64,000 nucleotides of DNA. It comes from an uncultured Ectothiorhodospiraceae bacterium (GTDB lineage: Bacteria; Pseudomonadota; Gammaproteobacteria; Nitrococcales; Nitrococcaceae). Shown here piece after piece: positions 3,104 to 20,699 of the stretch. Under the pieces are notes generated by a model. That model was given only the letters and a program-made list of their open reading frames with translations. It was not told the DNA's origin and did no database searches. Every line of letters begins with the position of its first letter. Position 1 is the stretch's first letter. A program made the position numbers and the translations under genes. The stretch spans positions 1 through 64,000 of the forward strand of contig CAJXSH010000004.1 in assembly GCA_913061005.1 (NCBI GenBank). Reading direction: 5' to 3'.

Positions 3104-4383
3104 GCCGCATCCTCATCCGCAATGGCCGTCTGATCGATCCGGCGGACGACCTGGATACCATCGGGGATGTGGCGATTGGTGATGGCCGCATCATCCGGCT
3201 TGGCGGCGACATCGATGACTTTACCCCCGACCGGGTGATTGACGCCGAAGGCCAGTGGGTCATCCCCGGACTTGTCGATCTGTGTGCACGGCTTCGCGAG
3301 CCCGGTGCCACCCGCAAGGCGGATATCGCCAGCGAGGCCCGTGCCGCGGCCGCCGGCGGTATCACCACGCTGGTCATGCCGCCGGACACCGACCCGGTCA
3401 TCGACACCCCCTCGGTGGTCGAGCTGATCCACCACCGCGCCGAGTCGGCCGCCGGTGCCCGGGTGGTCCCTCTGGGGGCCCTGACCCGGGGACTGGCAGG
3501 CGAGGCCTTGCCGGGCATGGCCGGGTTGGCGGCGGCTGGCTGCCCAGCGGTCTCGGACGGCGGGCAGCCGGTCACCGATGCGCTGGTGCTGCGGCGGGCA
3601 CTGGACTATGCCGCGACCTTTGCGCTGCCCGGGTTGCTGACCCCGGTCGAGCCGACGCTTGCCGGGGGCTGCCTGAACGAAGGGGCAACGGCCACCCGGC
3701 TGGGTCTGCCCGGCATTCCCGCCGCCGCCGAGACAGCGGCGCTGGGCCGGCAGCTGGCAGTGGCAGGCGCCACCGGTGCCCGGGTCCATTTTGGCCGGCT
3801 CTCGAGCGCCGAGGGGGTCCGGGCCCTGACCCATGCCCTGGGCGACAACCGCAAGCTCTCGGCCGATGTCGCCATCCATCAGCTCTTTCTCACCGATCAG
3901 GATGCGATGGACTATGACCCGCGGTTCCATCTGAACCCGCCGCTGCGCGATATCATCGACCGCGAAGCCCTGCGCCAGGCCTTTGCCGACGGCGTGCTCC
4001 GGATCATCTGCTCCGATCACCAGCCGCATGACGCCGATGCCAAAGAGGGGCCGTTTGCCAGCACGGCCCCCGGCGCCAGCGGCATCGATACCCTGCTGCC
4101 GCTGCTGCTGCGGCTGGTCGAGGATGAGGTCCTGCCGCTGCGCAAGGCGCTTGCCGCCGCGACCATCGAACCGGCCCGTCTGCTGGGCCTCGAAGGCGGC
4201 CGCCTGGCCGAAGGGGCGGCCGCCGATATCGCCGTGGTCGACCCGGCCGATCCCTGGTTCTGTCGCCCCGACACCCTGCAAAGCCGCGGCAAGAACTCGC
4301 CCTTTCTGGGGTGGGAGTTCAGCGCCCGTGTCCGTCATACCCTGGTCGAGGGCCGCCTGGTCCATTCCATCGACCGCTCATGA
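3100..4383 (+). CDS. pyrX: Dihydroorotase-like PyrC' (probably non-catalytic PyrB partner)
   Basis: A 427-residue protein of the class I dihydroorotase/amidohydrolase fold. The canonical metal motif DxHxHxR reads D60-L-C-A-R-L-R66 here, so both metal-binding histidines are replaced (by Cys62 and Arg64). The [11 protein letters not shown] segment, HLNPPLRDI and [15 protein letters not shown] are still recognisable. Loss of the HxH pair is the hallmark of the PyrC' proteins that stabilise aspartate transcarbamoylase in Pseudomonas, so I infer a structural role. A separate active dihydroorotase would then be expected elsewhere in the genome. Position directly after pyrB, with ATGA overlap, supports this. 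Confidence 0.88.
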
Positions 4384-5066
4384 CGCCGGCCCGCCTGCTG
4401 GATGCGAGCGCCGTATCCGACGACTGGCGTCTGATCCGGCTGCAATGGCACGACCCGCTGCCCGGGCCCGGGCAGTGGCTGTGGATGGACATCGATGGCC
4501 GGCGGCTGTGTCTGCCCTTTCGCGATGGCGACAGCGGCGAAGGCTGGATCGCCGGCGTTATCCCCAGCGCGCTCTTGCCCGGCAATCCCGGCCCCGGCCA
4601 TGCCGTCAGCCTCTCGGCGCTGCAAGGCGAGCCGCTTTTCGCGCCCGACGGGCAGGGGCTGATCATCCTGGGCCAGGATCTGGGGATTGGCCCGGCCATG
4701 GCCCTTGCCGAGCGCTGTCCCGAGTCCACCCGACTGGTGGTGCTCGGCGGCCAGCACGGTGTGCCGGCCCGGCTGGCGCCTTCCCGGTTCTACATCCCGG
4801 CGCTGGTCGACTGTGCCATTGCCGGGGTGGGCACCCTCGAGTCATTGGCGGTGCCATCACGCATCGCCCTCACCGATGAGCGACCGGGCGTCTACGAAGG
4901 CAGTCCCGTGGACCTGTTGGGCCGTTATCTCAGCGACCTCTCGGCCGATCAGCGCCAGGCACTCACGGTGGTCGCCATCGTCCCCTGGGGCAGCCTGCAT
5001 GGCCGGCAGGCCGGGCTGGCGGCGAGCATCGGCGCTCTGCAGCTTGTCGAGTTGCCGTCGCCGTAG
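4380..5066 (+). CDS. Ferredoxin-reductase/PyrK-like flavoprotein lacking the 2Fe-2S motif
   Basis: A 228-residue protein; the ATG at 4380 overlaps the previous stop by ATGA. The layout recalls the ferredoxin-NADP reductase/PyrK superfamily: an N-terminal barrel-like part with PGPGQWLWMDIDGRRLCLPF, then GEPLFAPDGQGLIILGQDLG and IGPAMALAERCP, like the GGGIGIAP nucleotide-binding turn. Only three scattered cysteines are present, so the cysteine cluster that holds PyrK's 2Fe-2S centre is absent. As last gene of the pyr run it may relate to electron transfer in pyrimidine synthesis, but function is unproven. Family assignment is by eye and moderate. Confidence 0.55.
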   Translation: MTPARLLDASAVSDDWRLIRLQWHDPLPGPGQWLWMDIDGRRLCLPFRDGDSGEGWIAGVIPSALLPGNPGPGHAVSLSALQGEPLFAPDGQGLIILGQDLGIGPAMALAERCPESTRLVVLGGQHGVPARLAPSRFYIPALVDCAIAGVGTLESLAVPSRIALTDERPGVYEGSPVDLLGRYLSDLSADQRQALTVVAIVPWGSLHGRQAGLAASIGALQLVELPSP

Positions 5067-5094
5067 CGGCGCCGTTTCGGATCCCCCGGGCCGC

Positions 5095-5109
5095 GGCCGC
5101 GAGGCGGCC
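5095..5109. terminator. GC-rich hairpin after the pyr operon
   Basis: GGCCGC at 5095-5100 pairs perfectly with GCGGCC at 5104-5109 around a three-base loop, inside a very GC-rich stretch just after the operon stop. There is no following T-run, so intrinsic termination is uncertain. Confidence 0.3.
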
Positions 5110-5130
5110 GGGCCGCGCCGGGGCAAGGAT

Positions 5131-5160
5131 TCGACGAGACTCTGCCGCCCGCCGTATGAT
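5131..5160 (+). promoter_or_regulatory. Candidate sigma-70 promoter for yggS-proC-yggT-metXW
   Basis: TCGACG at 5131-5136 (four of six to the -35 consensus) and TATGAT at 5155-5160 (five of six to the -10 consensus) are separated by 18 bases. Transcription would start near 5167, which favours the ATG at 5186 over the in-frame ATGs at 5156 and 5168. Confidence 0.45.
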
Positions 5161-5185
5161 TCCCGGCATGGAAGCCACCGCCAGC

Positions 5186-5878
5186 ATGGATATTGCCGAT
5201 CGCCTCGCCGCAGTGCGTGAGCGCATCGCAAAGGCCGAGCGTGACTACGGCCGGTCGCCGGGCAGCGTGCAGCTGCTGGCGGTGAGCAAGCGTCAGCCGG
5301 TGGCGGCGATCCGCGCGGCCCAGGCACAAGGCCAACAGGCGTTCGGCGAGAACTACCTCCAGGAGGCCGCCGACAAGCGTGAGGCGCTTGCCGATGCACC
5401 CATCGAGTGGCATTTCATCGGGGCGCTGCAATCCAACAAGACCCGGCCGGTGGCCGAGGGCTTCGACTGGGTGCATACCATCGACCGGCTCAAGATCGCG
5501 CGGCGGCTCTCGCAACAGCGCCCGCCGGCCATGCCACCACTGAATTGCTGTATACAGGTCAACGTCAGTGGCGAGGCGAGCAAGGCGGGGGTGGCGCCGG
5601 CGGATGCCGCCGAGCTGGCCCGCTCGGTGGCCGAACTGCCGGGCCTTGCCCTGCGCGGGCTGATGACACTGCCCGAAGCGGTCATGGATTTTGCCGCGCA
5701 ACGGGCGGCTTTCGCGCGGCTGCGGGCAATTCAGCAGGCGCTGATCGCCGAGGGCCTGGCACTGGATACCCTGTCGATGGGCATGTCCAATGATCTTGAG
5801 GCCGCGGTCGCCGAAGGCAGTACCCTGGTGCGCCTGGGGACCGCGGTATTCGGACCTCGACCGGAGAAGACAACGTGA
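5186..5878 (+). CDS. yggS: YggS/PROSC-family pyridoxal-phosphate homeostasis protein
   Basis: Binds pyridoxal 5'-phosphate and buffers its level in the cytoplasm; no enzymatic reaction is known for the family. The 230-residue form from 5186 has LLAVSKRQPVAAIRAA (PLP lysine), FGENYLQEAADK, WHFIGALQSNK and the C-terminal LSMGMSNDLEAAVAEGSTLVRLGTAVFG. In-frame starts exist at 5156 and 5168, but the likely promoter and alignment to typical starts favour 5186. In Pseudomonas this gene follows pilT; no pilT/pilU is present here. It overlaps proC at GTGA. Confidence 0.94.
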   Translation: MDIADRLAAVRERIAKAERDYGRSPGSVQLLAVSKRQPVAAIRAAQAQGQQAFGENYLQEAADKREALADAPIEWHFIGALQSNKTRPVAEGFDWVHTIDRLKIARRLSQQRPPAMPPLNCCIQVNVSGEASKAGVAPADAAELARSVAELPGLALRGLMTLPEAVMDFAAQRAAFARLRAIQQALIAEGLALDTLSMGMSNDLEAAVAEGSTLVRLGTAVFGPRPEKTT

Positions 5879-6702
5879 GCGAGAAAACCATCGCCTTTAT
5901 CGGAGGCGGCAACATGGCACGCAGCCTGATCGGCGGGCTGGTGGCCGACGGTCATCCGCCGGCGGCGCTGCGGGCCGCCGAGCCCGATGCCGAGCGGCGT
6001 GAGGCGCTGATCAGTGACTACGGCATCCAGGGCTTCGAGGACAACGCCACCGCCGCGCGGGGCGCGGATGCGGTCATCCTGGCGGTCAAGCCGGGCGAGC
6101 TGGCGGGCGTCGCCCGCCAGCTGGGCGGGCAGATCCGCGATCAGCAAAGCCTGGTGATTTCCATCGCCGCCGGGGTGCGCAGCCCGGACATTGCCGAGTG
6201 GCTGGGCGGCGATGTGCCTGTGGTCCGGGCCATGCCCAACACCCCGGCGCTCATCCAGACCGGTGCCACTGCGCTCTTTGCCAACCCTTCGGTTCGCCCC
6301 GAGCAGCGGGATCTTGCCGAGACCACCCTGCGGGCCGCCGGCATGGTGGTATGGCTGCCCGAAGAGACACAGATGGACGCGGTCACGGCGCTCTCCGGCA
6401 GCGGGCCGGCGTATTTCTTCCTGACCATGGAGGCGATGCAGGCAGCCGCCGAGCGGCTGGGCCTCGACAGCGACACGGCCCGACTGCTCACCCTCGAGAC
6501 CGCCCTGGGCGCGGCGCGAATGGCGCTCGAGGCGAGCGAAGAACCCGCCTTGTTGCGCCGGCGTGTGACATCACCCGGCGGCACCACCGCGGCGGCGCTC
6601 GCCGAGCTCGAGGGCGGTGACCTGGCCGGGCTCTACGAGCGGGCCCTGCGGGCGGCCGCGGGGCGCGCCCACGAACTGGGCGACGAACTGGGAGCACAAT
6701 AG
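5875..6702 (+). CDS. proC: Pyrroline-5-carboxylate reductase
   Basis: Reduces 1-pyrroline-5-carboxylate to proline with NAD(P)H, the last step of proline synthesis. The 275 residues begin with the Rossmann motif IAFIGGGNMARSLIGGL and contain VRAMPNTPALI and the dimer-domain signature near SGSGPAYFFL and TSPGGTTAAAL. Length and motifs are standard. The GTG start at 5875 overlaps yggS. Proline is a compatible solute in halophiles, although the gene arrangement is the ordinary gammaproteobacterial one. Confidence 0.97.
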   Translation: MSEKTIAFIGGGNMARSLIGGLVADGHPPAALRAAEPDAERREALISDYGIQGFEDNATAARGADAVILAVKPGELAGVARQLGGQIRDQQSLVISIAAGVRSPDIAEWLGGDVPVVRAMPNTPALIQTGATALFANPSVRPEQRDLAETTLRAAGMVVWLPEETQMDAVTALSGSGPAYFFLTMEAMQAAAERLGLDSDTARLLTLETALGAARMALEASEEPALLRRRVTSPGGTTAAALAELEGGDLAGLYERALRAAAGRAHELGDELGAQ

Positions 6703-6704
6703 CC

Positions 6705-7283
6705 ATGGGGCCGGGGTATCTTGCCAATCCACTGGCCTTTTTAGTGGATACACTCTTCAGCCTCTACATCATGGCGGTCATGCTGCGGTTTCTGCTGCAG
6801 TGGGCGCGGGCCGATTTCTACAACCCGCTCTCGCAGTTTCTGGTGCGCATCACCCAACCATTGTTGCACCCCTTTCGGCGGTTGATTCCCGGCTGGGGGG
6901 GCATCGATCTCTCGGCGCTGGTGTTGATGATCATCCTGCAGATGATCGCCCTGGCGCTTTTGATGATGATCGCCGGGGTCACGCCGCGGATGGATTATCT
7001 GCTGCTGCGCACACCCGCCGAGCTCATCAGCCTGCTTTTGAATGTCTATCTGGTGGCCATTGTGGTCCGGGCGGTGCTCTCGTGGATCAACCCCCATGAC
7101 TACAACCCCGCCACCACCGTGCTGCTCAGCCTCACCGAGCCGGTCATCCGGCCGTTGCGCTCGGTGATCCCGCCGCTCGGCGGGGTCGATCTCTCGCCGC
7201 TGGTGGCCATCATCCTGATCCAGGTGGCCAAGATGCTCATCCTCCCACCCCTCGATCGCATTGCCCCCGGGTTGATGATGTGA
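6705..7283 (+). CDS. yggT: YggT-family integral membrane protein
   Basis: A 192-residue inner-membrane protein made of two similar YggT repeats. Each has a hydrophobic helix followed by a segment of the type [31 protein letters not shown] (first half) and [20 protein letters not shown] (second half), then another helix. The molecular function is not firmly known; a role in osmotic shock or K+-related homeostasis has been suggested for E. coli YggT. It sits two bases after proC and overlaps metX at GTGA, the standard order. Confidence 0.93.
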
Positions 7284-8437
7284 ACACGCCCCAGTCCTTG
7301 CCCAGTGATTCGGTTGGCTATGTGGAGCCGGCGTCGGTGCACTTCGATGAGGCCCTGTCGCTGGAGTCGGGCCACACCCTGTCCGGCTATACCCTGGCCT
7401 ACGAAACCTACGGCACGCTTAATGCCGATCGCAGCAACGCCGTGCTGGTCTGCCATGCCTTATCGGGCGATCACCACGCCGCCGGCTACCGCGAGGGCGA
7501 GCGCAAGCCGGGCTGGTGGGAGGCCTGCATCGGTCCGGGCAAGCCGCTTGATACCAACCGCTTTTTTGTCGTCTGCAGCAACAATATCGGTGGCTGCCAC
7601 GGCTCGACCGGCCCGACCAGCATCAACCCCACCACCGGCGAAGCCTACGGGGCCGACTTCCCGATGGTGACCGTGCGTGACTGGGTCAAGACCCAGGCCC
7701 GGCTGGCGGATCACCTGGGCATCGAGACCTGGGCGGCGGTCGCCGGCGGCAGCCTGGGGGGCATGCAGGCGCTGCAGTGGGCCATCGATCTGCCCGAGCG
7801 GCTCGCCCATGCCATCGTGATCGCCGCCGCGCCGCGGCTCTCGGCACAGAACATCGCCTTCAACGAGGTGGCCCGCCAGGCCATCCGCTCTGACCCGGCC
7901 TTTCACGAAGGCCGCTACGCCGCCGCCGGTGACCAGCCCGCCACCGGGCTGATGCTCGCGCGCATGCTCGGCCACATCACCTATCTCTCCGAGGCCGCCA
8001 TGGGGGCGAAATTCGGCCGCGAGCGACGTGGCGAGCCCAACGACTATGGCTTTCACTACGATGTGGAGTTCGAGGTCGAAAGCTACCTGCGCCACCAGGG
8101 CCAGTCGTTCGTCGACCGGTTTGACGCTAACACCTACCTGCTCATGACCAAGGCGCTCGATTATTTTGACCCGGCGGCGGCGACCGGCGGCGATCTGGCC
8201 GCGGCCCTGGCCGGTGCAAAGGCCCGCTTTATGGTGACCTCGTTTACCAGCGACTGGCGGTTCCCGCCCTCGGCCAGCCGCGAAATCGTCCGGGCCCTTC
8301 TGGATACCAACAAACCGGTGAGCTACGCCGAGATCCGCGCCGACCACGGCCACGACGCCTTTTTGATGCCGGTGCCGCGCTACCGCTCGGTCTTTACCAC
8401 GTATATGCAGCGGGTCGCCGCCGAGGTGGGGGCATGA
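7280..8437 (+). CDS. metX: Homoserine O-acyltransferase (MetX; probably O-succinyltransferase)
   Basis: Alpha/beta-hydrolase-fold enzyme that acylates homoserine in methionine synthesis. The 385 residues show the oxyanion segment [12 protein letters not shown], the nucleophile elbow [13 protein letters not shown] (Ser158), the acidic residue region [10 protein letters not shown] and catalytic His in [11 protein letters not shown]. Proteobacterial MetX encoded next to MetW is generally a succinyltransferase, so I favour succinyl-CoA as donor; acetyl-CoA cannot be excluded from sequence by eye. GTG start overlaps yggT; it overlaps metW by ATGA. Confidence 0.95.
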
Positions 8438-9036
8438 GCCCGTTGCGCGAAGACCTGCAGATCGTCGCCGACTGGGTGGCACCGGGACAGCGCGTCCTCG
8501 ATCTGGGCTGTGGCGACGGCATGCTGTTGCGGCATTTGTTCGACAGCCGCCAGGCCACCGGATACGGCCTCGAGATCGACCCCGAGGGCATTACCCAGAG
8601 CATCGCCAATGGCATTAACGTCATCGAAAGCGATCTCGATCAGGGGCTTTCCGATTTCGAGGACGATGCCTTCGATCAGGTCATCCTCACCCAGACCATC
8701 CAGGCGGTGCAAAGGCCCGATGCGCTGCTCCAGGAGATGCTGCGGGTGGGTCGCACCGGCATCGTCACCTTTCCCAACTTTGCCTACTACCGACTGCGCT
8801 ACCATCTGGCGGTCCGCGGCCGGATGCCCATGAGCGACGCCCTGTCCTACGCCTGGTACGAGACACCCAATATCCATTTCTGCACCATCCGCGACTTTGA
8901 GGTGCTCTGCGACGAGCTGGGTATTCACATTCTGGAGCGGCGCGTGTTATCCCATGACCTAAAGCGGCCGGTACTCGCCCGGGTGATGCCCAACCTCTTC
9001 GGCGAGGTGGCGCTGTATCGTATCTGTCGCGCCTGA
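8434..9036 (+). CDS. metW: Methionine biosynthesis protein MetW
   Basis: A 200-residue class I methyltransferase-fold protein that forms a pair with MetX and is needed for full homoserine acylation in proteobacteria. The SAM-binding-like motif [15 protein letters not shown] is near residue 25, and the family-specific [14 protein letters not shown] and [12 protein letters not shown] segments follow. Genuine methyltransferase activity has not been shown for the family. It overlaps metX by four bases, so both products are likely co-translated. Confidence 0.95.
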
Positions 9037-9048
9037 TGGAGGCATGCC

Positions 9049-9504
9049 ATGAGATGTTTTTCGTTTTCTTCCCCGGCCCGCGCATTGACCCGGGCGGTGG
9101 CCGCGGCCGCCATGCTGCTGCCCATGATCGCCCTGGGCCAGCAGGCCGAGCGCTTTGGTGATTACGAAATCCACTACAGCGCCCTGCCCACCGGCATGCT
9201 CAACGCCCAGGTCGCCGAGAGCTACGACATTTTAAGAAGCCGCACCCGCGGGATGCTCATGATCACCATCCTGCGCAACGGCGAACCGGTCACCGGCCGG
9301 GTGGATGTCCTGGCACGGGATGTCGACGATGAACTCACCGAAATCCCGGCTCGACAGGTCAAGGACGACCAGTGGGTCTCCTATGTGGGCACCTTTCCCG
9401 TGGACGAAGGGGACTCGCTGATCTTCGAGGTGACGGTCAACCCGCACGAGGGTGGCGGGCCGTTCGAGATGGCCTTCAAACAGACCTTCTATCCCGGGAA
9501 GTAG
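9049..9504 (+). CDS. Secreted DUF4426 protein
   Basis: A 151-residue protein with a typical Sec signal peptide (about 30 residues, ending near LGQQA) and a small beta-rich domain beginning FGDYEIHYSALPTG. Proteins with this domain (DUF4426) regularly sit just downstream of metW in Pseudomonas and relatives, matching this position. Function is unknown; it is likely periplasmic. The ATG at 9049 follows a GATGGAGG sequence at a normal ribosome-site distance. Confidence 0.85.
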   Translation: MRCFSFSSPARALTRAVAAAAMLLPMIALGQQAERFGDYEIHYSALPTGMLNAQVAESYDILRSRTRGMLMITILRNGEPVTGRVDVLARDVDDELTEIPARQVKDDQWVSYVGTFPVDEGDSLIFEVTVNPHEGGGPFEMAFKQTFYPGK

Positions 9505-9507
9505 CCG

Positions 9508-10431
9508 GTGTCGACCTGGCTGATCACCCACAGCGACTGCGAGCACCACGACACCGGCAGCGATCACCCCGAGCGCATCGAGCGCCTCGAGGCCATCAAC
9601 CAGGCGCTGGCCGACCCCGCCTTTGCCGATCTGATCCGCCAGCCGGCGGAATACGGCACCCGTCAGGCCATCGCCCGGGCCCATGACGCGGCCTATATCG
9701 ATTCGGTCTTTGCGGCCATCCCGACCCGCGGGCGCCGGCATTTCAACGCCGACACCGTGGTATCCCCCGGCTCCGCGGCGGCCGCGATGCGCGGCGTGGG
9801 CGCCGCCACCCAGGCCGTGGATGCCATCCAGGCGGGCCTGGCCCGGCGGGTCTTCTGCGCCACCCGCCCGCCGGGCCACCACGCCGAGCCCGATGAGTCC
9901 ATGGGCTTTTGCCTTTTCAACAATGCCGCCATCGCCGCTTTCCATGCCCAGGCGGTGCACGGCGTCCAGCGGGTCGCCGTGGTGGATTTCGATGTCCACC
10001 ACGGCAACGGCACGCAGACGCTTTTTAGCGGTCGCGAGGGGCTTTTCTACCTCTCGCTGCATCAACATCCGCTGTTCCCGGGCACCGGCACCCGGCGCGA
10101 CAACCGCCCCGGCAATATCCTCAACCTGCCTCTTGCCGAGGGCACGGGCTCGGCGGCCTATCGGCAGCAGTTCCATGGCGAGGCCATCTCGGCGCTGATC
10201 GAATTCGACCCGGAATTGCTCATCGTCTCGGCCGGGTTTGATGCCGCCGCCGAGGATCCACTCGCCGGATTGACGCTGACCCGCGATGATTTTGCCTGGA
10301 TCACCGATGAGCTGGTGGCGGTGGCCAACTACTGCTGCGGTGGCCATATCTGCTCGGTGCTCGAGGGCGGTTATGACCTGGGGGCACTGGGCCGGGGCGT
10401 GGCCGCCCATGTCGCCGGTCTGATGCGCTGA
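9508..10431 (+). CDS. Histone deacetylase-family (AcuC/AphA-like) amidohydrolase
   Basis: A 307-residue zinc hydrolase of the class II histone-deacetylase superfamily. Active-site landmarks: RPPGHHAEPDESMGFCLFNN (tandem histidines), VDFDVHHGNGTQ (Asp/His metal ligands) and SAGFDAAAEDPLAGL (second metal Asp). Bacterial members deacetylate acetylpolyamines, acetoin-related or other small substrates, or protein lysines; the substrate cannot be told here. GTG start at 9508, three bases after the previous stop. It is the last gene of the + strand run and converges on zapE across an AT-rich island. Confidence 0.92.
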   Translation: MSTWLITHSDCEHHDTGSDHPERIERLEAINQALADPAFADLIRQPAEYGTRQAIARAHDAAYIDSVFAAIPTRGRRHFNADTVVSPGSAAAAMRGVGAATQAVDAIQAGLARRVFCATRPPGHHAEPDESMGFCLFNNAAIAAFHAQAVHGVQRVAVVDFDVHHGNGTQTLFSGREGLFYLSLHQHPLFPGTGTRRDNRPGNILNLPLAEGTGSAAYRQQFHGEAISALIEFDPELLIVSAGFDAAAEDPLAGLTLTRDDFAWITDELVAVANYCCGGHICSVLEGGYDLGALGRGVAAHVAGLMR

Positions 10432-10437
10432 CAGGGG

Positions 10438-10660
10438 TTGACAGATGCGGTTATACACACGGGAGTGCGCGGCGTTTCTTCACTGTCTACGCTAAATGCC
10501 TGATCAGCCAAGATAAATCGCAAGCTATTGTTTATATTAATATTTTTGAATTGGTGAAGATTTCACCGATCTAACACAAACTCCCATGCCATGCCGCTTG
10601 CAACGCCGATCGGCCATTTCCTCCACAGACTTATCCACAGCTTCTGGGGACAACTCCTCA
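10438..10660. other. AT-rich island with DnaA boxes (candidate replication origin or DnaA-binding locus)
   Basis: Two perfect DnaA boxes (TTATNCACA) lie on the + strand at 10451-10459 and 10631-10639. Around the second, TCCTCCACA at 10619-10627 and, on the other strand, a TTGTCCCCA at 10645-10653 are degenerate copies. Between them, 10501-10570 is only about 30 percent G+C in a roughly 65 percent genome, with an A/T run at 10526-10552. A perfect hairpin (GGTGAA, GAT, TTCACC) is at 10553-10567 and GATC sites at 10502, 10568 and 10608. These are the ingredients of an origin: boxes plus unwinding element. Against it, the two flanking genes converge on it and no dnaA, dnaN or mnmG is in view; a datA- or DARS-like regulatory site is the alternative. 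Confidence 0.5.
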
Positions 10661-11755
10661 GGGCCGGTGGGCGAGCCCCAGGTACTCATGGGACTGCATC
10701 TCGCGCAACCTCGAGACGGTGCGACGAAACTCGAATCGCAAACGCGCGCCCCGATAGAGCCAGTCGATCTCGGCATCGGCGGCGATGATCAACTTCACCC
10801 CCCGGTCATAGAACTCGTCCACCAGCGCGATAAAGCGACGCGCCGCATCCTCGAGATCCCGATCCAGGATGGGCACCCGCCATAGCAGCACCGTGTGGAA
10901 CTGCCGGGCAATCTCGACGTAGTCATCGGGGCTGCGCGGCCCTTTGCAGAGCGCGTCAAAATCGCACCACAACACCCCGTCACCCACGGCCCGGGCGGTG
11001 ATGCGCCGCTGGTTGATGGTCAGCATCGGCTCGCCGTGCTCCCGCTCCGGGCAGATGGCCTCGAAGGTCTCGGCCAGTCGACGGTGAGCGTGCTCGTCCG
11101 CCGGCACATGATAAACCGGCGCCCGCGAGAGCAGCCGCAGGCGGTAATCCACCCCACCATCGACGTTGAGCACCCGGGTGTGCGATTCAAGCAGATCGAT
11201 GGCCGGCAGAAACCGGTCGCGCTGCAGGCCGTCACGGTAGAGCGATTCGGGGGGGACGTTGGAGGTGGCAACCAGGGTGACGCCTTCCTCGACCAGCCCG
11301 TGCAGCAGCCCCGAGAGGACCATGGCATCGGCGATATCACTGACGAAGAACTCATCGAAGCACAGCACCCGCGTGTCCGCGGCCCACTCGGCGGCGAGCC
11401 GGCGCAGGGGATCCTGCTGGGCGCGCAATACCCGCAGCCGCTCGTGGGCCGACTGCATGAAGCGATGGAAATGCGCCCGGCGCTTGCCCACCGCCGCCGG
11501 CAGGCACTCGTAGAACATATCCATGAGATAGGTCTTGCCGCGGCCGACCCCACCCCAGAGGTAGAGCCCCGGGATCCCCGTCGGGTCCTGACGCCGGCGT
11601 TGCCACCAGCCCCGCAGCCCCCCGGCGGGTTCAGGGGTCTCGAGCAGCTGTTCGTACAACGCCTCCAGTGCCACGACCGCCTGGCGCTGCGCCTCATCCG
11701 GCTGAAACCCGCTTTCTGTCAGATCCTGCTGATATCGTTGACCCGGCGTCGTCAA
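10658..11755 (-). CDS. zapE: Cell division protein ZapE (AFG1-like ATPase)
   Basis: A 365-residue AAA-type ATPase. Walker A is GLYLWGGVGRGKTYLMDMF, Walker B VLCFDEFFVSDIADA, followed by sensor segment VATSNVPPESLY. In E. coli ZapE acts at the Z-ring late in division; mitochondrial AFG1 helps clear unassembled oxidase subunits. The predicted start is a TTG at 11755; no in-frame ATG precedes it, and the encoded start aligns well with known members. It converges on the histone-deacetylase-like gene and is divergent from ilvD with 136 bases between, where I see no strong promoter match. Confidence 0.93.
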   Translation of the reverse strand: MTTPGQRYQQDLTESGFQPDEAQRQAVVALEALYEQLLETPEPAGGLRGWWQRRRQDPTGIPGLYLWGGVGRGKTYLMDMFYECLPAAVGKRRAHFHRFMQSAHERLRVLRAQQDPLRRLAAEWAADTRVLCFDEFFVSDIADAMVLSGLLHGLVEEGVTLVATSNVPPESLYRDGLQRDRFLPAIDLLESHTRVLNVDGGVDYRLRLLSRAPVYHVPADEHAHRRLAETFEAICPEREHGEPMLTINQRRITARAVGDGVLWCDFDALCKGPRSPDDYVEIARQFHTVLLWRVPILDRDLEDAARRFIALVDEFYDRGVKLIIAADAEIDWLYRGARLRFEFRRTVSRLREMQSHEYLGLAHRP

Positions 11756-11891
11756 GGCGCTGACTCGTTCTCATTCCCTTGCCAGTGGCGATTATGCCAC
11801 GGCATCGGGGCCGCGAAGATTGCCAGCGCCCCGGCAGTTTCGTATTTTGCCCGGTGGAACATAAGCGAAATCACCGAACCGAGGATTCAAC

Positions 11892-13583
11892 ATGGCCGAT
11901 AACCGCCGCAGCCGCGTCGTCACCCAGGGGCTCGCCCGCACGCCCAACCGCGCGATGATGCGCGCCGCCGGGTTCGGGGATGAAGACTTCGACAAACCCA
12001 TCGTCGGTGTCGGCAACGCCCACAGCACCATCACGCCCTGCAACCTGGGCATCGGCGCCCAGGCCGAGCGGGCCAGCGAGGCATTGAAAAGCGCCGGCGC
12101 CATGCCGGTGATGTTCGGCACCATCACCATCTCGGATGGCATCTCGATGGGCACCGAGGGGATGAAATACTCGCTGGTCTCGCGCGAGGTCATCGCCGAT
12201 TCCATCGAGACCGTCTGCAACGGCCAGAGCCTGGATGGCGTGCTCGCCACCGGCGGCTGCGACAAGAACATGCCCGGGGCGATGATCGGTATCGCCCGGC
12301 TCAATATCCCGTCGATCTTTGTCTACGGTGGCACCATCAAGCCGGGTAACTACAAGGGCAAGGACCTGACCATCGTGAGCGCCTTCGAGGCGGTGGGCGA
12401 GGCCGCCGCCGGACGGCTCTCCGACGAGGACCTAAAGGGCGTCGAGATGAACGCCTGCCCCGGGGCAGGTTCCTGCGGTGGCATGTATACCGCCAACACC
12501 ATGTCCAGCGCCTTCGAGGCCATGGGCATGAGCCTGATGGGCTCGAGCACGGTCTCGGCGGTGGATGAAGAGGCCCACACCGTTGCCGCCCGGGCGGCCG
12601 AGGTGCTGGTGGACGCTATCCATCATCAGCGCCTGCCGCGCGATATCATGACCCGCAAGGCGTTCGAGAATGCCGCCACCCTGCTCATGGCGGTGGGCGG
12701 GTCGACCAACGCGGTGCTGCACCTCATGGCCATCGCCAACGCCTGCGAGGTGGATTTTTCCATCGACGATATCGAGGCCATTCGCCGCAAGGTGCCGGTG
12801 CTCTGCGACCTCAAGCCCTCGGGGCGTTACGTCACTAGCGAGTTCCACGAGGTCGGCGGCACCCCGCAGGTGATGAAGATGCTGCTGGCCCGGGGGCTGC
12901 TGCACGGCGACTGCATGACCATCACCGGCCAGACCATCGAAGCGCTGCTGGCCGATGTGCCGTCGGATCCGCCGGCCGAGCAGGAAATCATCCGCAATTT
13001 CGACAACCCGGTCTACGCCGAAGGGCATCTGGCCATTCTGCGTGGCAACCTGGCCGAGGAAGGCGCCGTGGCCAAGGTCAGCGGCATCAAGCATCGCCGC
13101 ATCGAGGGGCCGGCCCGGGTCTTTGACTCCGAAGAGCTGGCCATGGAGGCGATCCTCGCCGACCGGATCCAGGCCGGTGATGTGCTGATCATCCGCTATG
13201 AAGGGCCCAAGGGGGGACCGGGGATGCGCGAGATGCTCGCCCCCACCTCGGCGATCATCGGCCGGGGCCTGGGGGATGCCGTGGGGCTGATCACCGATGG
13301 CCGCTTCTCGGGCGGGACCTACGGCATGGTGGTCGGTCACGTGGCCCCCGAGGCCGCCGTCGGTGGCAATATCGCCCTGGTCGAAGAAGGCGACACGGTG
13401 GTGATCGACGCCGATAAGAACCTGCTCGAGATCCGCATTGACGACGAGACCCTGGCCGAGCGACGGCGGCGTTGGCAGCCCCGGCCGCCCAACTATCGCC
13501 GCGGCATCCTGGGCAAGTTCGCCAAGCTGGTGAGCTCGGCGTCCCACGGGGCGGTGACCGACAAGGACCTTTTCGACGACTGA
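11892..13583 (+). CDS. ilvD: Dihydroxy-acid dehydratase
   Basis: Dehydrates 2,3-dihydroxy-3-methylvalerate and 2,3-dihydroxyisovalerate in isoleucine/valine synthesis. The 563 residues carry three cysteines at the positions expected for the Fe-S cluster: Cys50 (TPCN), Cys123 (GGCDKNMPG) and Cys195 ([16 protein letters not shown]). C-terminal signatures [14 protein letters not shown] and [13 protein letters not shown] are intact. These positions fit the 2Fe-2S type. It stands alone, not with other ilv genes. ATG at 11892 has only a weak ribosome site. Confidence 0.97.
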
Positions 13584-13593
13584 CGGCCCCTCA

Positions 13594-13617
13594 CCCGTGC
13601 GTCGAACGGCGCACGGG
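13594..13617. terminator. Hairpin between convergent ilvD and sco genes
   Basis: CCCGTGCG at 13594-13601 pairs perfectly with CGCACGGG at 13610-13617, an eight-base stem with an eight-base loop in the 35-base gap between two convergent genes. It could end transcription in both directions, although no T-run follows. Confidence 0.5.
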
Positions 13618-13618
13618 C

Positions 13619-14218
13619 CTACCCCTCGCTCGCCACCCGCCGCAGGTCGGCGGCCATGGCCGCCACACTGTCATCCGGGCTGAACAGCGCCCGGGCCTCG
13701 CCTTTGGCGTCAAACAGGTACATGGCGCTGGAGTGGGAGACGCTGTAGTCACCAAACTCGTTGGGCTCGCCGTAGCCAAAGGTCGCCCGGTAGCGCTTGG
13801 TCATCTCGCGCAGTGTCTCGACATCGGCCGTGGCACCGGTCACCCGGTCACTGAAAAAATCCGTATAGCGCTTGAGCGTGGCCGGATCATCGCGTCCTGG
13901 ATCCACCGAGACAAACAGCACCCGCAGATCCGAGGCCGGCGCCCCGGCCGCCTCCATGGCCGCGGCGATCCGGGCCATGGCGGTGGGGCAGACATCCGGG
14001 CAGTGGGTAAAGCCAAAGAACACCACCGCCGGGGCGCCGCGGAACGCCGCCTCGGTGATGGGCTCGCCGGATTCGGCGGTCAGCTCGAAGCGAAGCGGCG
14101 GCAGCAGGTTTTCGATGCCCTTGGTCTGGTAATCTCGCCCGCCGCAGCCAACCAGCACAGCCAGCATCACCCCCAGCAGTGCGATGCGCGCCGCCCTATT
14201 GCGAAGCTTTTTGACCAT
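13619..14218 (-). CDS. SCO1/SenC-family copper chaperone lipoprotein
   Basis: Delivers copper to, or maintains thiols of, the CuA site of cytochrome c oxidase. From the ATG at 14218 the protein has 199 residues, with a lipoprotein signal ending LVGC (Cys25), so it is likely anchored in the periplasmic face of the membrane. The copper motif is THCPDVCP (Cys73, Cys77) and the distal histidine lies in YSVSHSSAMYLFD. An upstream in-frame start at 14266 would bury the signal peptide and is less likely. Its start overlaps ctaG by 23 bases, so the pair is co-transcribed with the gene at 15020. Confidence 0.93.
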   Translation of the reverse strand: MVKKLRNRAARIALLGVMLAVLVGCGGRDYQTKGIENLLPPLRFELTAESGEPITEAAFRGAPAVVFFGFTHCPDVCPTAMARIAAAMEAAGAPASDLRVLFVSVDPGRDDPATLKRYTDFFSDRVTGATADVETLREMTKRYRATFGYGEPNEFGDYSVSHSSAMYLFDAKGEARALFSPDDSVAAMAADLRRVASEG

Positions 14219-15023
14219 CAGGCTTCTCCAGTCGAAAGGCCAGGACGATGATCGCCGCCGCCACACTCATCATCGAGGCCGGAATCCAGGTGATCAGCCC
14301 ACCGATTTGCTGATCCAGCAGCGGATCGATGGGAAAGGCCCGCCCGCAGACATCATAGATCTCGAAAAGGTTCTGATCACTGAAGGTGATGAACGCCCCG
14401 AGGGCAATCTGCGGCGGCATGACCAGCGCAAGCACCAGGATTCGCTTACCCGGCGACAGCCGGGGCGTCACACCACGATCACCGCGCTCGAAAATCAGCC
14501 ACCAGAACAACAGTCCATCGAGCACCATGGTCCAGTTCATCAACCAGTAGAGATCGATACTGAGCATGGCGTCGAAGTGGATTTCCGGGGTCAGCCAGAA
14601 ATAGATCAGCCCGACAAACAGAAAACCGGCGATGAACGGTTGCTGGAGGATGCGATAGCCCCCGCGCAGGAGGGTGAACACCGGGGCCGCCGGCCCCTGG
14701 GGCCAACGCCGCACCACCGCCGGCAACCCCGCGGCGAGGACCGCCGTGGGCATGGCCAGGGCGATCAGAAAGGGGCCCAGGTGATGCAGGATGAGATGCT
14801 GCAGGCGATGCGCCGAGAAAAGATACTGCGAGTAGTAGTCGTAGTGGGTCTGGGTGACCAGATAGATCAGCGTCACGCCGGCAAAATACGACAGCGCCGG
14901 CCAGAACCCGGGACGGGCGCCGCGCAGCAGACCCGCGGCATAGAGCACCACGGCCAGGATGCAGGCGAGAAAAACCGGGGCAGAAGGCTCCCAGGGCCGC
15001 AGCCACTCAAAAAGCGTGTTCAT
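14196..15023 (-). CDS. ctaG: CtaG (caa3-type) cytochrome c oxidase assembly protein
   Basis: A 275-residue membrane protein with about seven predicted helices and the histidine-rich loop SAHRLQHLILHHLGPF typical of the Caa3_CtaG family, thought to help form the CuB site of cytochrome oxidase. This family is unrelated to Cox11, which is also called CtaG; no Cox11 gene is seen in the oxidase cluster, so this protein may do its job. It overlaps the upstream gene by ATGA and the sco gene by 23 bases. Confidence 0.9.
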   Translation of the reverse strand: MNTLFEWLRPWEPSAPVFLACILAVVLYAAGLLRGARPGFWPALSYFAGVTLIYLVTQTHYDYYSQYLFSAHRLQHLILHHLGPFLIALAMPTAVLAAGLPAVVRRWPQGPAAPVFTLLRGGYRILQQPFIAGFLFVGLIYFWLTPEIHFDAMLSIDLYWLMNWTMVLDGLLFWWLIFERGDRGVTPRLSPGKRILVLALVMPPQIALGAFITFSDQNLFEIYDVCGRAFPIDPLLDQQIGGLITWIPASMMSVAAAIIVLAFRLEKPDGQKASQ

Positions 15024-15355
15024 CGGGCTGAGAGATTAGCAACCGCGCTCATGTGCGCATAGGCCCTTTCGCTGAGCAACACCACCACCCGGCTGCTGGC
15101 ATAGCGGCCATCCTGCCGGTCGAGCGATTCGATCAGCGCGGCAACCTGCGCGTCGTCGTCGGCCGCCGCCGGATCGATGACAAAAAAATCCTGCCCCTCG
15201 ACAAGGGTGTCGCGAACCCGTTTGAACGCCCGAAAGGCGGTCCCCTTGGGTGCGGCATTGAGCCGGTCGATCTGTCGCAGCGACAACACCGCAACGCCCT
15301 GCCATGTCAGCGGCTGCTCACTCACCGCCGACACCTCGGTGGCCTCGCCACCCAA
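15020..15355 (-). CDS. Small ORF6N-like DNA-binding domain protein
   Basis: About 100-111 residues. The stretch from WQGVAVLSLRQIDRLN through FKRVRDTLVEGQDFFVID, then VVVLLSERAYAHMS, resembles the ORF6N domain found in phage antirepressors and related DNA-binding proteins. That likeness is by eye. The farthest start is a TTG at 15355; GTG codons at 15334 and 15325 are equally credible, so the true N-terminus is open. It is the first gene of a run with ctaG and sco (ATGA overlap with ctaG), which is unusual company for this domain. It could be a local regulator of oxidase assembly or of unrelated targets. Confidence 0.6.
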   Translation of the reverse strand: MGGEATEVSAVSEQPLTWQGVAVLSLRQIDRLNAAPKGTAFRAFKRVRDTLVEGQDFFVIDPAAADDDAQVAALIESLDRQDGRYASSRVVVLLSERAYAHMSAVANLSAR

Positions 15356-15358
15356 GGC

Positions 15359-15386
15359 TTACCCGGCGGCGTCGGTGGCGTAGAAT
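15359..15386 (+). promoter_or_regulatory. Candidate promoter for sohB
   Basis: TAGAAT at 15381-15386 matches the -10 consensus at five of six positions; TTACCC at 15359-15364 is a weak -35 at 16 bases. The start would leave a leader of about 33 bases with AAGGAG at 15414-15419 before the ATG. Confidence 0.4.
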
Positions 15387-15425
15387 GATCGATTTGGCGT
15401 TGTTCCATCCAACAAGGAGCCCAGC

Positions 15426-16421
15426 ATGGAGTTCATCCAGGATTATGCCCTGTTTCTGGCCCGGGTCGTGACCCTGGTGGTGGCCATCGGGGTGGTGATC
15501 AGCCTGATCGGCGCCGCCGGCAAGCGCCGGGGCCGGCAGCGGGAACAGCTCGAGGTGGAACCGCTCAACCGCCGCTACGAAGCCATGACCCGGCGGATCG
15601 AACAGGGCACCGGCAAGGAACGGCCCGGACTGGTCAAGCGCCTCAAGGCGCGCCGGCAGAAAAAGTCCAAAAGCGGTGAGGGGCGACTGCCGAGGCTCTT
15701 TGTGCTGGATTTCGAGGGCGACCTGCGCGCCAGCGCCACCGAGACCCTGCGCGAAGAGATCAGCGCGGTACTGGCAAGTGCCAGGAGCGATGACGAGGTG
15801 CTGCTGCGGCTGGAGAGCCCCGGCGGCATGGTGCCCGGCTATGGCCTGGCGGCCAGTCAACTGGCGCGGCTTCGCGAAAAAGGGATCCGCCTGACCGTAT
15901 CGGTGGACCGGGTAGCCGCCAGCGGTGGCTATTTAATGGCCTGTGTCGCCGATCGCATCGTCGCCGCCCCGTTTGCGGTCATCGGCTCGATCGGTGTGGT
16001 CGGTCAGCTGCCCAACTTCAACCGCCTGCTCAAACGGCACGATATCGACTTCGAGCTGCATACCGCCGGCGAGAACAAGCGCGACCTCACCGTCTTTGGC
16101 CACAACACCGACGAGGGTCGGGCCAAGTTCCGCGAATCGCTCCAGGAAGTCCACGACCTTTTCAAAGAGCATATCGCCCGGCACCGGCCCCGGGTGGATC
16201 TCGACCGGGTGGCGACCGGCGAGCACTGGATGGGCGAAAAGGCCCTGGAGCTGGGTCTGGTGGATGACCTGGGCACCAGCGATGATCTGCTGCTCGAGCG
16301 GCGCGAGCGCATGGAGCTGGTCAAGCTGGACTACCAGCCCGCGCCCTCGCTCAAGCGGCGTCTCTCGGTGGTGGTCGAGTCGCTGCTGGCGCGGCTGGGG
16401 CTGGCCCCGAGCCGGGTCTAG
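15426..16421 (+). CDS. sohB: SohB-type inner-membrane S49 peptidase
   Basis: A 331-residue signal-peptide-peptidase A family protease. An N-terminal membrane helix (residues about 8-30) is followed by a basic cytoplasmic-like linker, then the S49 domain with LLRLESPGGMVPGYGLAASQ, the nucleophile region VDRVAASGGYLMACVADRI and IGSIGVVGQLPNFN. The later segment GEHWMGEKALELGLVDDLG is also conserved. Members cleave residual signal peptides or membrane proteins. The gene is monocistronic, divergent from the ORF6N-like gene and convergent with tusA. Confidence 0.94.
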   Translation: MEFIQDYALFLARVVTLVVAIGVVISLIGAAGKRRGRQREQLEVEPLNRRYEAMTRRIEQGTGKERPGLVKRLKARRQKKSKSGEGRLPRLFVLDFEGDLRASATETLREEISAVLASARSDDEVLLRLESPGGMVPGYGLAASQLARLREKGIRLTVSVDRVAASGGYLMACVADRIVAAPFAVIGSIGVVGQLPNFNRLLKRHDIDFELHTAGENKRDLTVFGHNTDEGRAKFRESLQEVHDLFKEHIARHRPRVDLDRVATGEHWMGEKALELGLVDDLGTSDDLLLERRERMELVKLDYQPAPSLKRRLSVVVESLLARLGLAPSRV

Positions 16422-16445
16422 CCGCCGCCGGCGCCTTCCCTGCCC

Positions 16446-16461
16446 ACCCGCAGCGGCGGGT
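16446..16461. terminator. Hairpin between convergent sohB and tusA
   Basis: ACCCGC at 16446-16451 pairs with GCGGGT at 16456-16461, overlapping the tusA stop codon. The stem is short and no T-run follows, so termination is only suggested by position. Confidence 0.3.
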
Positions 16462-16706
16462 CAACCCTTCTCGAGCCAGAAGGTAAACACCCCGTCCGCT
16501 TCGTCGTGGGCCAGCAATCGGTGCTCGGTGGTATCGCAGAACCCACGAAAATCGATCACCGAATGGGGGTCGGTGGCGCGCACCCGCAACCGCTCGCCCG
16601 CCGCCATATCCCGCAGCGCCTGCTTGGTCCGCAGGATCGGCAGTGGACAGTTGAGGCCGCGGACATCCAGATCGCGGTGGAAATCGACTTGTGACGGCAA
16701 AGCCAT
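16461..16706 (-). CDS. tusA: TusA-family sulfur carrier protein
   Basis: Small cytoplasmic sulfur-transfer protein; TusA carries persulfide sulfur for tRNA 2-thiolation and, in some sulfur oxidisers, for sulfur oxidation. From the ATG at 16706 it has 81 residues, with the family motif DVRGLNCPLPILRTKQAL holding the active Cys20 in a CPxP context. A longer start at 16745 would run through the palindrome at 16728-16752 and is unlikely. No other tus or sulfur-oxidation gene is in the window. Confidence 0.92.
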   Translation of the reverse strand: MALPSQVDFHRDLDVRGLNCPLPILRTKQALRDMAAGERLRVRATDPHSVIDFRGFCDTTEHRLLAHDEADGVFTFWLEKG

Positions 16707-16727
16707 GGAGCAAGCCCCGAACCAGTG

Positions 16728-16752
16728 CGTATACTTGGCGTCCAAGTATACG
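16728..16752. promoter_or_regulatory. Perfect 11-bp inverted repeat between tusA and a divergent gene
   Basis: CGTATACTTGG at 16728-16738 and CCAAGTATACG at 16742-16752 are exact reverse complements around CGT. Each arm holds TATACT, five of six to the -10 consensus: 16730-16735 reading toward the small gene at 16775 and 16745-16750 reading toward tusA. Each would give a leader of a little over 30 bases. This looks like an operator that overlaps both promoters. I find no good -35 for either, so an activator or a different sigma contact is possible. The binding protein is unknown. Confidence 0.6.
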
Positions 16753-16774
16753 GAACGAGTAACGCCACCGCCTC

Positions 16775-16981
16775 ATGAGTGACGAGAAAAAACAATCCGA
16801 CCGCCAGGGCGCGACCCGCCAGTCCGACGCCGCGGCATCCGACTTCGACCCGCGGCCGGTCAGCGATGCCGAGCTGCGCGAGGAGGTATCGCGTGAGCAG
16901 GCCCAGGATTATCAACGCCAGGCCGATCAAGCCCATCAGAACTGGTTTTCGGTGATGAACAACCCCTACGGCAAGGACTGA
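16775..16981 (+). CDS. Small hydrophilic protein of unknown function
   Basis: A 68-residue protein rich in Asp, Glu, Gln, Ser and Arg, without membrane helix or signal peptide. The N-terminal half is low complexity and probably disordered; the second half (ELREEVSREQAQDYQRQADQAH) could form an amphipathic helix, and it ends in NNPYGKD. I do not recognise a family. It is divergent from tusA across the palindrome and lies 24 bases before lipA, so it may be co-transcribed with lipA. No clear ribosome site precedes the ATG. Confidence 0.6.
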   Translation: MSDEKKQSDRQGATRQSDAAASDFDPRPVSDAELREEVSREQAQDYQRQADQAHQNWFSVMNNPYGKD

Positions 16982-17005
16982 GCGTCCCGCCCAAGGAGCA
17001 TGACC

Positions 17006-18010
17006 ATGAGCGAACTCAAGGGCATACCGGTCGTCGTCAGCGGCCAGAAGGTCAGCAAACCCAACGGCGTTCGGGCCATTAAAAACGGCATCAAGACCCA
17101 GCGGGACAGCGCACCGGTCAACCGTGGCGACAAGCCCGACTGGCTGCGGGTGAAAATCCCCACCGGCGAGACCTACCAGAAGGTCCGCCAGACGGTGCGC
17201 GAGCACAAGCTGGCCACTGTCTGCGAAGAATCCATGTGCCCCAACATGGGCGAGTGCTGGAGCGCCGGCACCGCCACCATCATGCTCATGGGCGATGTCT
17301 GCACCCGGGCCTGCCGTTTTTGCGCGGTGGACACCGGCAACCCCCGTGGCTGGCTGGACGACAACGAGCCCGCCGGTGCGGCGGAGACCGTCGAGCTGAT
17401 GGGACTGAAGTACGTGGTGCTCACCTCGGTGGACCGGGATGACCTGCCGGATGGTGGGGCGAGCCACTACGCGGCCTGCATCCGCGAAATCCAGCGCCGC
17501 AACCCCAACACCGCCGTCGAGGCGCTGACCCCCGACTTTGACGGACGCCACGAGGCGATCAATACGGTCGTGGACACCGGCCTCGAGGTCTTTGCCCAGA
17601 ACGTCGAGACCGTCGAGCGACTCACCCATCCGGTCCGCGATCCCCGCGCGGGCTACCAGAAGACCCTGGATGTGCTCGCCCATGCCAAGGCGCGGCGGCC
17701 CGAGGTGTTGACCAAGACCTCTCTCATGCTCGGGCTGGGCGAGACGGATGAGGAAATCATCCAGACCATGGATGATCTGCGCGCCATCGGTGTTGATATT
17801 GTCACCTTTGGCCAGTATCTGCGCCCCACCATCAACCACCTGCCCGTGGATCGCTACGTCACGCCGGCGCAGTTCGACCGCTACCGCGACATCGGCCTGG
17901 CCAAGGGCTTTCTCGAGGTGGTCTCCGGGCCGTTGGTGCGCTCGAGCTACCGGGCCGACCGGGTTCTTGAGAAGAACAACGTCGGCCTCGACACCGCGGC
18001 CAGCGGCTAG
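17006..18010 (+). CDS. lipA: Lipoyl synthase
   Basis: Radical-SAM enzyme that inserts two sulfurs into octanoyl-carrier domains to make lipoate. The 334 residues hold both Fe-S clusters: the auxiliary cluster in [12 protein letters not shown] and the radical-SAM motif in [11 protein letters not shown]. The C-terminal RSSYRAD motif serine/arginine region ([13 protein letters not shown]) is intact. AAGGAG at 16993-16998 favours the ATG at 17006 over 17000. No lipB is adjacent; its usual neighbours are not here. Confidence 0.97.
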
Positions 18011-18023
18011 CGCCCAACCGACG

Positions 18024-18041
18024 GGCCGGCTGCGGCCGGCC
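18024..18041. terminator. Hairpin between convergent lipA and antiporter genes
   Basis: GGCCGGC at 18024-18030 pairs perfectly with GCCGGCC at 18035-18041 around four bases, in the 30-base gap between two convergent genes. No T-run is present; a bidirectional role is inferred from position. Confidence 0.45.
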
Positions 18042-19774: not shown

Positions 19775-19825
19775 AGTCTACTGGGTTTCAACGACTGGCC
19801 TCACCCTGCGCCAAGGCATACGCAC

Positions 19826-20671
19826 ATGGATACCATCGTCATCGCCACCGATCTCAGTAGCCGGGCCGAGCGGGCCCATCGCATGGGCGTACTGCTGGCC
19901 CGTCAGTCCGGTGCCCGTCTGCGGTTCGTCTATGGCATCGACAACGACCAGCCCGCCAACCTGGTCAAGGCACAATCCGATCAGGCGTGGATCAGCCTGC
20001 AGCGGCTGGCCGACACCGTCGAGCGCTTCGATGGCATCGACTGCTCGGCCGAGGTCGCCAGCGGCGACGGGATCGCCGAGGCGATCACCGCCTGCGTGCC
20101 ATCGTCGGCATCATTGCTGATCCTCGGCAGCCACCGACGCCGGCCCGTCCGGGATCTTTTTCTGGGCGGCACACCCGAGCGTCTTGTCGCCCAGCGCCAG
20201 GTACCCGTACTGGTGGTCCGCCAACCGCCGGTCGAGGCCTATCGGCGCATGCTGTTTGCAACGGATCTCTCTGATGCGTCCATGGCGGTGGCCAGGCGAA
20301 TCGCCGACCATCCGGTGACCGGTCCATTGGCAAAGATCGTGCTCACCGTCGCCGGCAGCCTCGAGCAAAGCCCGGTGGCCGCCAACCGGATGAGTGACCC
20401 GGCCCGGGAGGAATGGCTGGCCGGCATGGCGGCCCGCGCCGAGGCCGCGCTCGAGCGTTTTATCGAACGCGCGCGGATGGGCGTGGTGACCCCCCGCGTC
20501 GAGGCGACGACCCAGCCCACCGCCGCCGCCATCGTGGAAGCGGCCCGACACGAGGGCGCGGATCTGATTGCCGTCTCGCCCAGTGAATCCCAGGGACTGG
20601 AGTCGTTCCTGCGCGAGAGCGTCACCGTTCAGCTACTCAATAGCGCCCCGATGGATGTCATGGTTCTGTGA
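19826..20671 (+). CDS. Tandem universal stress protein
   Basis: A 281-residue protein with two Usp domains. The first (1-135) begins TIVIATDLSSRAERAH and includes LLILGSHRRRPVRDLFLGGTPERLVAQRQVPVLVV, whose GxxxGT-like turn suggests ATP binding. The second begins MLFATDLSDASMAVAR and ends with SEGLESF-type features and VQLLNSAPMDVMVL but has a poorer nucleotide motif. Such proteins act in stress and energy sensing. Divergent from a CPA2 antiporter, which suggests a functional pair. The ATG at 19826 is preceded by AAGG at a suitable distance. Confidence 0.86.
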   Translation: MDTIVIATDLSSRAERAHRMGVLLARQSGARLRFVYGIDNDQPANLVKAQSDQAWISLQRLADTVERFDGIDCSAEVASGDGIAEAITACVPSSASLLILGSHRRRPVRDLFLGGTPERLVAQRQVPVLVVRQPPVEAYRRMLFATDLSDASMAVARRIADHPVTGPLAKIVLTVAGSLEQSPVAANRMSDPAREEWLAGMAARAEAALERFIERARMGVVTPRVEATTQPTAAAIVEAARHEGADLIAVSPSESQGLESFLRESVTVQLLNSAPMDVMVL

Positions 20672-20699
20672 CGGTGCTGGCCTCGCCGCCGATGCCCGG

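Follow-up and report, generated by a model that had tools for sequence, protein, structure and literature searches.

A probable DARS-type DnaA-reactivating sequence beside zapE in Spiribacter, with a second DARS-like copy near dif

What is the role of a short intergenic gap that holds two perfect DnaA boxes between convergent genes, and could it be the chromosome origin, as a preliminary description had proposed? The gap (226 bp, 10432-10657) lies in a stretch of 64,000 nucleotides, referred to as the window (contig C4:1-64000 of a 37-contig draft genome, 84.7% complete, which we take to belong to the genus Spiribacter), and is flanked by a histone-deacetylase-family gene (PF00850; 9508-10431, plus strand) and zapE (NF040713, 437 bits; 10658-11755, minus strand), which point toward each other, as had been described, with both 3' ends facing the gap. 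The two perfect boxes, TTATACACA at 10451 and TTATCCACA at 10631, were found at the positions given for them, and the degenerate boxes at 10619 (TCCTCCACA) and 10645 (TGGGGACAA, opposite strand), the G+C content of 30% over 10501-10570 and the three GATC sites in the gap were likewise confirmed. The number of perfect boxes had been called far above chance, and indeed these two are the sole TTATNCACA matches in the 64-kb window, where 0.21 are expected; two or more matches anywhere were obtained in 2 of 100 shuffles. The reported 6-bp hairpin holds for this particular sequence, where it overlaps a Fis-like site (10553-10567), and its perfect arms recur in 0 of the 12 other element-bearing alignment rows, as judged by eye. 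Across positions 4001-22000 of the window, the AT skew climbs from about -0.06 to +0.19, and the GC skew there is about zero or slightly negative.

The three-box core and its spacing

In spacing and orientation, the three boxes on the right match the core of E. coli DARS (9-5-9-3-9 bp, with boxes I and II head to head). Box II is the perfect box TTATCCACA (10631-10639, plus strand); the weak box I (TTGTCCCCA, 10645-10653, minus strand) faces it head to head across a 5-bp spacer, and the weak box III (TCCTCCACA, 10619-10627, plus strand) lies 3 bp from it in the same orientation, with boxes I and III each off at 2 of the 8 informative bases. Read along the minus strand, the core of the window is TTGTCCCCA-5-TGTGGATAA-3-TGTGGAGGA, compared with TTATCCACT-5-TGTGGATAA-3-TGTGTATTA in E. 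coli DARS1 and TTATTCACC-5-TGTGGATAG-3-TGTGAAGAA in E. coli DARS2, the latter core being located between the deletion primers quoted in PMC4585315. The head-to-head pair of boxes I and II is described in PMC10380432 as characteristic of DARS and essential, and the set of core boxes I-III with this pair, on which membership of the DARS class depends, is present here, with boxes I and III weak in the window.

The 5/3-bp spacing is prominent in related loci. In a grid of 56 spacer combinations, 5/3 occurred in 18 of 30 zapE loci, in 5 of 80 named zapE loci and in 22 of 30 two-box loci (three sets that overlap in part), every other combination in at most 3 loci, and the reversed control gave 0. 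A column-wise comparison of 33 non-redundant elements likewise shows box I conserved, but the choice of these elements depended on limits set for boxes I and III. Conservation of the two boxes is therefore partly built in, and the spacing grid is the fairer test. The 79 named zapE loci from other genera, examined over at most 3 kb on each side, contained five strict cores, all in records titled Ectothiorhodospiraceae, and the linkage to zapE is therefore not seen beyond such records.

Similarity to known sites was assessed with R1, a sequence-only model of 136 positions trained on 33 elements of the order, with E. coli absent from the training set. Within the window, the stretch comprising the core, the Fis-like site and the first IHF-like site (10520-10653, minus strand, 80.4 bits) is the sole R1 match at E ≤ 10, the element itself being among the 33 training rows. 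E. coli DARS1 scored 29.7 bits (E 4.5e-8, as with all R1 E-values a rough figure), the E. coli DARS2 core weakly at 16.1 bits (E 7.7e-4), and E. coli datA gave a partial match of 14.4 bits (E 2.5e-3) whose first position is the last base of box I. Since the DARS2 and datA scores are close to that of the dnaA locus of the window's own genome (15.0 bits), we regard DARS1 as a clear match and scores near 15 as not decisive. In genome searches that stayed within the class, R1 matched 54 of 54 genomes of the order at E ≤ 0.001, with 1 to 11 matches per genome, and 245 of 274 genomes of the class.

A passing remark in the preliminary description, that datA and DARS sites also use clusters of DnaA boxes, proved apt: the boxes are spaced as in a DARS core, and the element is tied by a single sequence model to E. 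coli DARS1 and weakly to DARS2. Judging from sequence architecture, conservation and positions, from which we infer DnaA binding and nucleotide exchange, the element is probably a DARS-type DnaA-reactivating sequence with the variant layout core-Fis-IHF-distal box. The kind itself is already known, as DARS-like sequences are reported to occur in many proteobacteria (PMC10380432).

Fis-like, IHF-like and distal sites beyond the core

Beyond the core lie a Fis-like site (GGTGAAGATTTCACC, 10553-10567), two IHF-like sites on the minus strand, each with one mismatch, and a distal DnaA box. Of the IHF-like sites, the first (AAACAATAGCTTG, 10521-10533) is at +106 from box II and the second (GATCAGGCATTTA, 10493-10505) at +134, where several Spiribacter relatives have a perfect match; an IHF site beyond the core, as the DARS2 subtype requires, is thus found, with one mismatch in both window sites. 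Elements for the counts that follow were selected by core limits, and the Fis and IHF sites played no part in choosing them; a distal box accompanies 38 of 40 cores, and none is shown for loci L031, L041, L115 and L126. A site differing from the IHF consensus WATCARNNNNTTR at no more than one position lies +105 to +109 from box II in 27 of 38 elements (a hand count of rows), and the other 11 have none there. Perfect interior matches on the same strand were present in 18 of 38 elements, with 0.21 expected and at most 2 in 200 first-order Markov resamplings; these counts are not independent, because the elements share ancestry. The Fis consensus, constrained at 13 positions, fitted best at +72, with a mean of 4.03 of 13 positions mismatched versus 6.42 at the next best place in the 33 elements, and the Fis-like site of the window, which occupies this best position, is off at 3 of the 13.

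The starts of the distal box (TTATACACA, 10451-10459, plus strand) and of box II are 180 bp apart. Across the order, the pattern TTATNCACA-N160-190-TTATCCACA was found at 53 places in 35 of 54 genomes, with 0 for the reversed-pattern control, and the start-to-start distances, confined to 169-199 by the pattern itself, cluster at 179-181 (23/53) and 188-191 (19/53), a separation of roughly one helical turn. A set of 19 distances, taken from loci that were located in other ways and in several cases belong to a single genus, gave R=0.72 for phasing at 10.5 bp, a value reached by 0 of 5000 uniform draws, and the best period was 10.9.

Carried over by analogy with E. coli DARS, the inferred mechanism would be one of ADP release. 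ADP-DnaA would bind boxes I, II and III, and at the head-to-head pair I/II two DnaA AAA+ domains would face each other, upon which ADP would leave; the apo-DnaA set free would rebind ATP, giving more ATP-DnaA in time for another round of initiation at oriC. By bending the DNA near +72 and +106, respectively, Fis and IHF (the latter also at +134 in Spiribacter) may allow DnaA on the distal box to fold back onto the core, and a DNA loop to the core is suggested by the spacing, because the distal box is phased by one helical turn. The genes for DnaA, Hda and IHF-beta are encoded in the window's genome and a Fis gene is barely above the cut-off (99.1 vs 99); no IHF-alpha gene was found in this roughly 85% complete draft.

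Comparison with the E. coli loci places the element near, but not within, the DARS2 subtype. DARS2 shares with it the three-box 9-5-9-3-9 core, an IHF site, a Fis site that is only putative in the element studied here and, 197 bp from box II, a further perfect DnaA box (taken as box V), yet this box runs in the opposite direction relative to box II, DARS2 lies upstream of mutH instead of beside zapE, and its R1 score is just 16.1 bits. The DARS2 subtype calls for the order core-IHF-Fis (PMC4245941), whereas the order here is core-Fis-IHF, and because the site order differs we do not file the element as DARS2 proper. DARS1, located between bioD and uvrB, has the same core spacing and the top R1 score among the three E. 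coli loci, but no TGTGNAYAA box within 260 bp after box III; no pathway that regulates DARS1 is known in E. coli (PMC5010248).

Among the alternatives, we regard a datA-like site as unlikely. Such a site, at which IHF loops flanking DnaA boxes together and the resulting ATP hydrolysis leaves less ATP-DnaA, would account for the same-orientation DnaA boxes on both sides of the IHF-like sites. E. coli datA likewise has an IHF site between same-orientation boxes, with tandem boxes 12 bp apart and another box of the same orientation 162 bp on, and its partial R1 match (14.4 bits, E 0.0025) is near the DARS2 score. However, no head-to-head box I is seen in datA, whereas box I at 5 bp is favoured over other spacings in the elements studied here, and the R1 match to datA omits all but the last base of that box, with DARS1 scoring far higher. 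Moreover, datA, which has the opposite effect on DnaA, is near oriC (0.10) and adjoins tRNA genes, as compared to 16-19% of the genome for the element. The mark of datA is IHF between boxes without a DARS core, and here the DARS core is present.

Linkage to zapE and position in the chromosome

The two-box arrangement is located downstream of zapE in 12 of the 13 genomes of the genus that have zapE, the window's own included, and also in G031, a member of another family. Of the 12 genomes of the genus, 8 have TTATNCACA and 4 have TTGTNCACA at the same columns; the zapE-side element was not found in G011 (Spiribacter salilacus). R1 matches on the zapE strand and at most 3 kb downstream of the gene were present in 26 of 43 zapE-carrying genomes of the order, a count that takes R1 rows down to about E 1e-10 and excludes four zapE genomes outside the order. 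The distance from zapE to the match is 6-8 bp in 12 Spiribacter genomes, 43 bp in G031 and 853-1449 bp in 13 others, and three genomes beyond the 26 (G032, G043 and G045) have the two-box pattern at up to about 1.2 kb from zapE.

Another possibility is that the element only titrates DnaA, or acts as a DnaA-controlled regulatory site for the flanking genes, in either case without nucleotide exchange. High-affinity boxes could titrate DnaA, and zapE and the deacetylase-family gene adjoin the element. Titration, however, leaves the fixed weak boxes I and III, the IHF and Fis matches and the phasing unexplained, and regulation is at odds with a gap that, in the window, is bordered by two 3' gene ends and with the 0.85-1.45 kb between zapE and the element in 13 of the 14 non-Spiribacter genomes that have a zapE-linked element. 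We therefore hold this explanation to be very unlikely and retain the DARS-type reading.

Position in the chromosome was determined in two complete relatives, G005 and G006, with the GC skew sampled in 20 stretches of each. In G006 the skew is positive in each of the 11 stretches between 1 and 777 kb and negative in each of the 9 from 850 kb onward. In G005 it is positive in 10 of the 12 stretches as far as 867 kb, with two exceptions (-0.003 and -0.011) at the element and beyond it, and negative in all 8 from 950 kb onward. The intervals in which the sign changes contain dif-like sites, at 823.6 and 871.9 kb, and dnaA is at the start of both contigs, with the element about 320 kb off. Counts of KOPS-like motifs fit an origin at dnaA in G006, with 13 to 5 on the right arm and 2 to 8 on the left; in G005 they fit it on the left arm (1 to 11) and show no bias on the right (11 to 10). 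In the gap between dnaA and dnaN, G006 has one perfect box together with weak ones and AT-rich DNA (L064:1410-1650), and G031 has three perfect boxes with an AT-rich stretch (L052:2500-2730); this gap is likely to be the oriC of the group, as far as its sequence indicates.

The origin proposed in the preliminary description, with the AT-rich middle of the element as the unwinding element, accordingly receives almost no credence from us: the box cluster with its AT-rich stretch, the lack of a TTRTNCACR match upstream of dnaA in two Spiribacter loci with upstream DNA (L014 and L047) and the slightly negative skew that G005 alone shows at the element and beyond it speak for it, but in both sampled genomes the skew turns from minus to plus at dnaA and its maximum brackets dif, the dnaA-dnaN gap has boxes and AT-rich DNA of its own, a second similar copy lies near dif in the same genome, and the element is not in G011. 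The sampled skew, the location of dnaA and the dnaA-dnaN boxes are the grounds on which it was rejected. Of the two outcomes that the preliminary description had named as speaking against an origin, one was obtained, as the element, in the two sampled complete relatives, is away from the GC-skew minimum at which an oriC should lie; the other, loss of the boxes in relatives, was not, since the boxes are conserved. A plasmid origin was also rejected, as no plasmid match to 10300-10800 was found.

The distance from the element to dnaA, expressed as a fraction of the genome, is 0.187 in G006, 0.168 in G005, 0.174 in G001 and 0.163 in G012. Measured from dnaA, these four relatives thus have the element at the approximately 0.2 genome lengths from oriC that belong to the DARS2 subtype; the fractions reported for E. 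coli are 0.21 for DARS2, 0.33 for DARS1 and 0.10 for datA (PMC5010248), and DARS2 resembles the element in its mid-arm location (0.21 vs 0.163-0.187 here).

The copy beside dif

The presence of a second copy near dif in Spiribacter was unexpected. In the window's own genome, a second DARS-like copy (C10:50362-50498; loci L011 and L274) lies 1.9 kb from a dif-like site (C10:48443-48468; L269); the distal box of this copy, at 215, is out of phase by about 3 bp. A dif match was found in 14 of 14 genomes of the genus, and where dif and an R1 match share a contig (12 genomes), they are 1.9-2.6 kb apart in 11 and 8.3 kb apart in G002; G003 and G004 have no R1 match on the dif contig among the matches listed. 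Order-wide, dif was counted once per genome, the weaker second match of G019 and two weaker ones of G036 being dropped; among the R1 matches listed, at least one lies no more than 11 kb from dif in 17 of the 41 genomes that have dif. Of 21 genomes with dif and R1 on one contig, 4 are without such a match among those listed.

In E. coli, moving DARS2 to the terminus, near terC, is reported to cause asynchrony and fewer origins (PMC5010248). Literature on DARS with dif or the terminus, or on DARS beyond E. coli, searched by title and the opening of the abstract, yielded no natural dif-side DARS among the papers listed, and within the literature searched in this way the core-Fis-IHF layout, the phasing and the dif-side copy were not found in print. 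The earlier DARS comparisons consulted here dealt with representative relatives of E. coli (PMC4245941) and with seven E. coli-proximal species (PMC8682772), and the natural elements aligned here provide a testable layout for a wider group; they suggest that the order of Fis and IHF is not fixed. With less than even confidence, we propose that the DARS common among gammaproteobacteria, those of the E. coli group apart, may be a looped core-Fis-IHF-distal box switch held in helical register, and that the Spiribacter copy about 2 kb from dif, doubled when replication finishes, may help to license the next round. Because Spiribacter appears to hold a natural DARS-like copy at the terminus, how position times the recharging of DnaA becomes directly testable.

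The distribution of copies varies between genomes. G011 (Spiribacter salilacus) has the dif-side element and is missing the one beside zapE. Three genomes of genus g12 (G038, G028 and G034) have 9-11 lower-scoring R1 matches each, compared with 2-6 in six other g12 genomes and 1-2 in Spiribacter. Pairs of R1 matches about 280-390 bp apart on the same strand, resembling tandem duplications, occur in G049:C103, G030:C38, G041:C117, G023:C106 and G027:C45.
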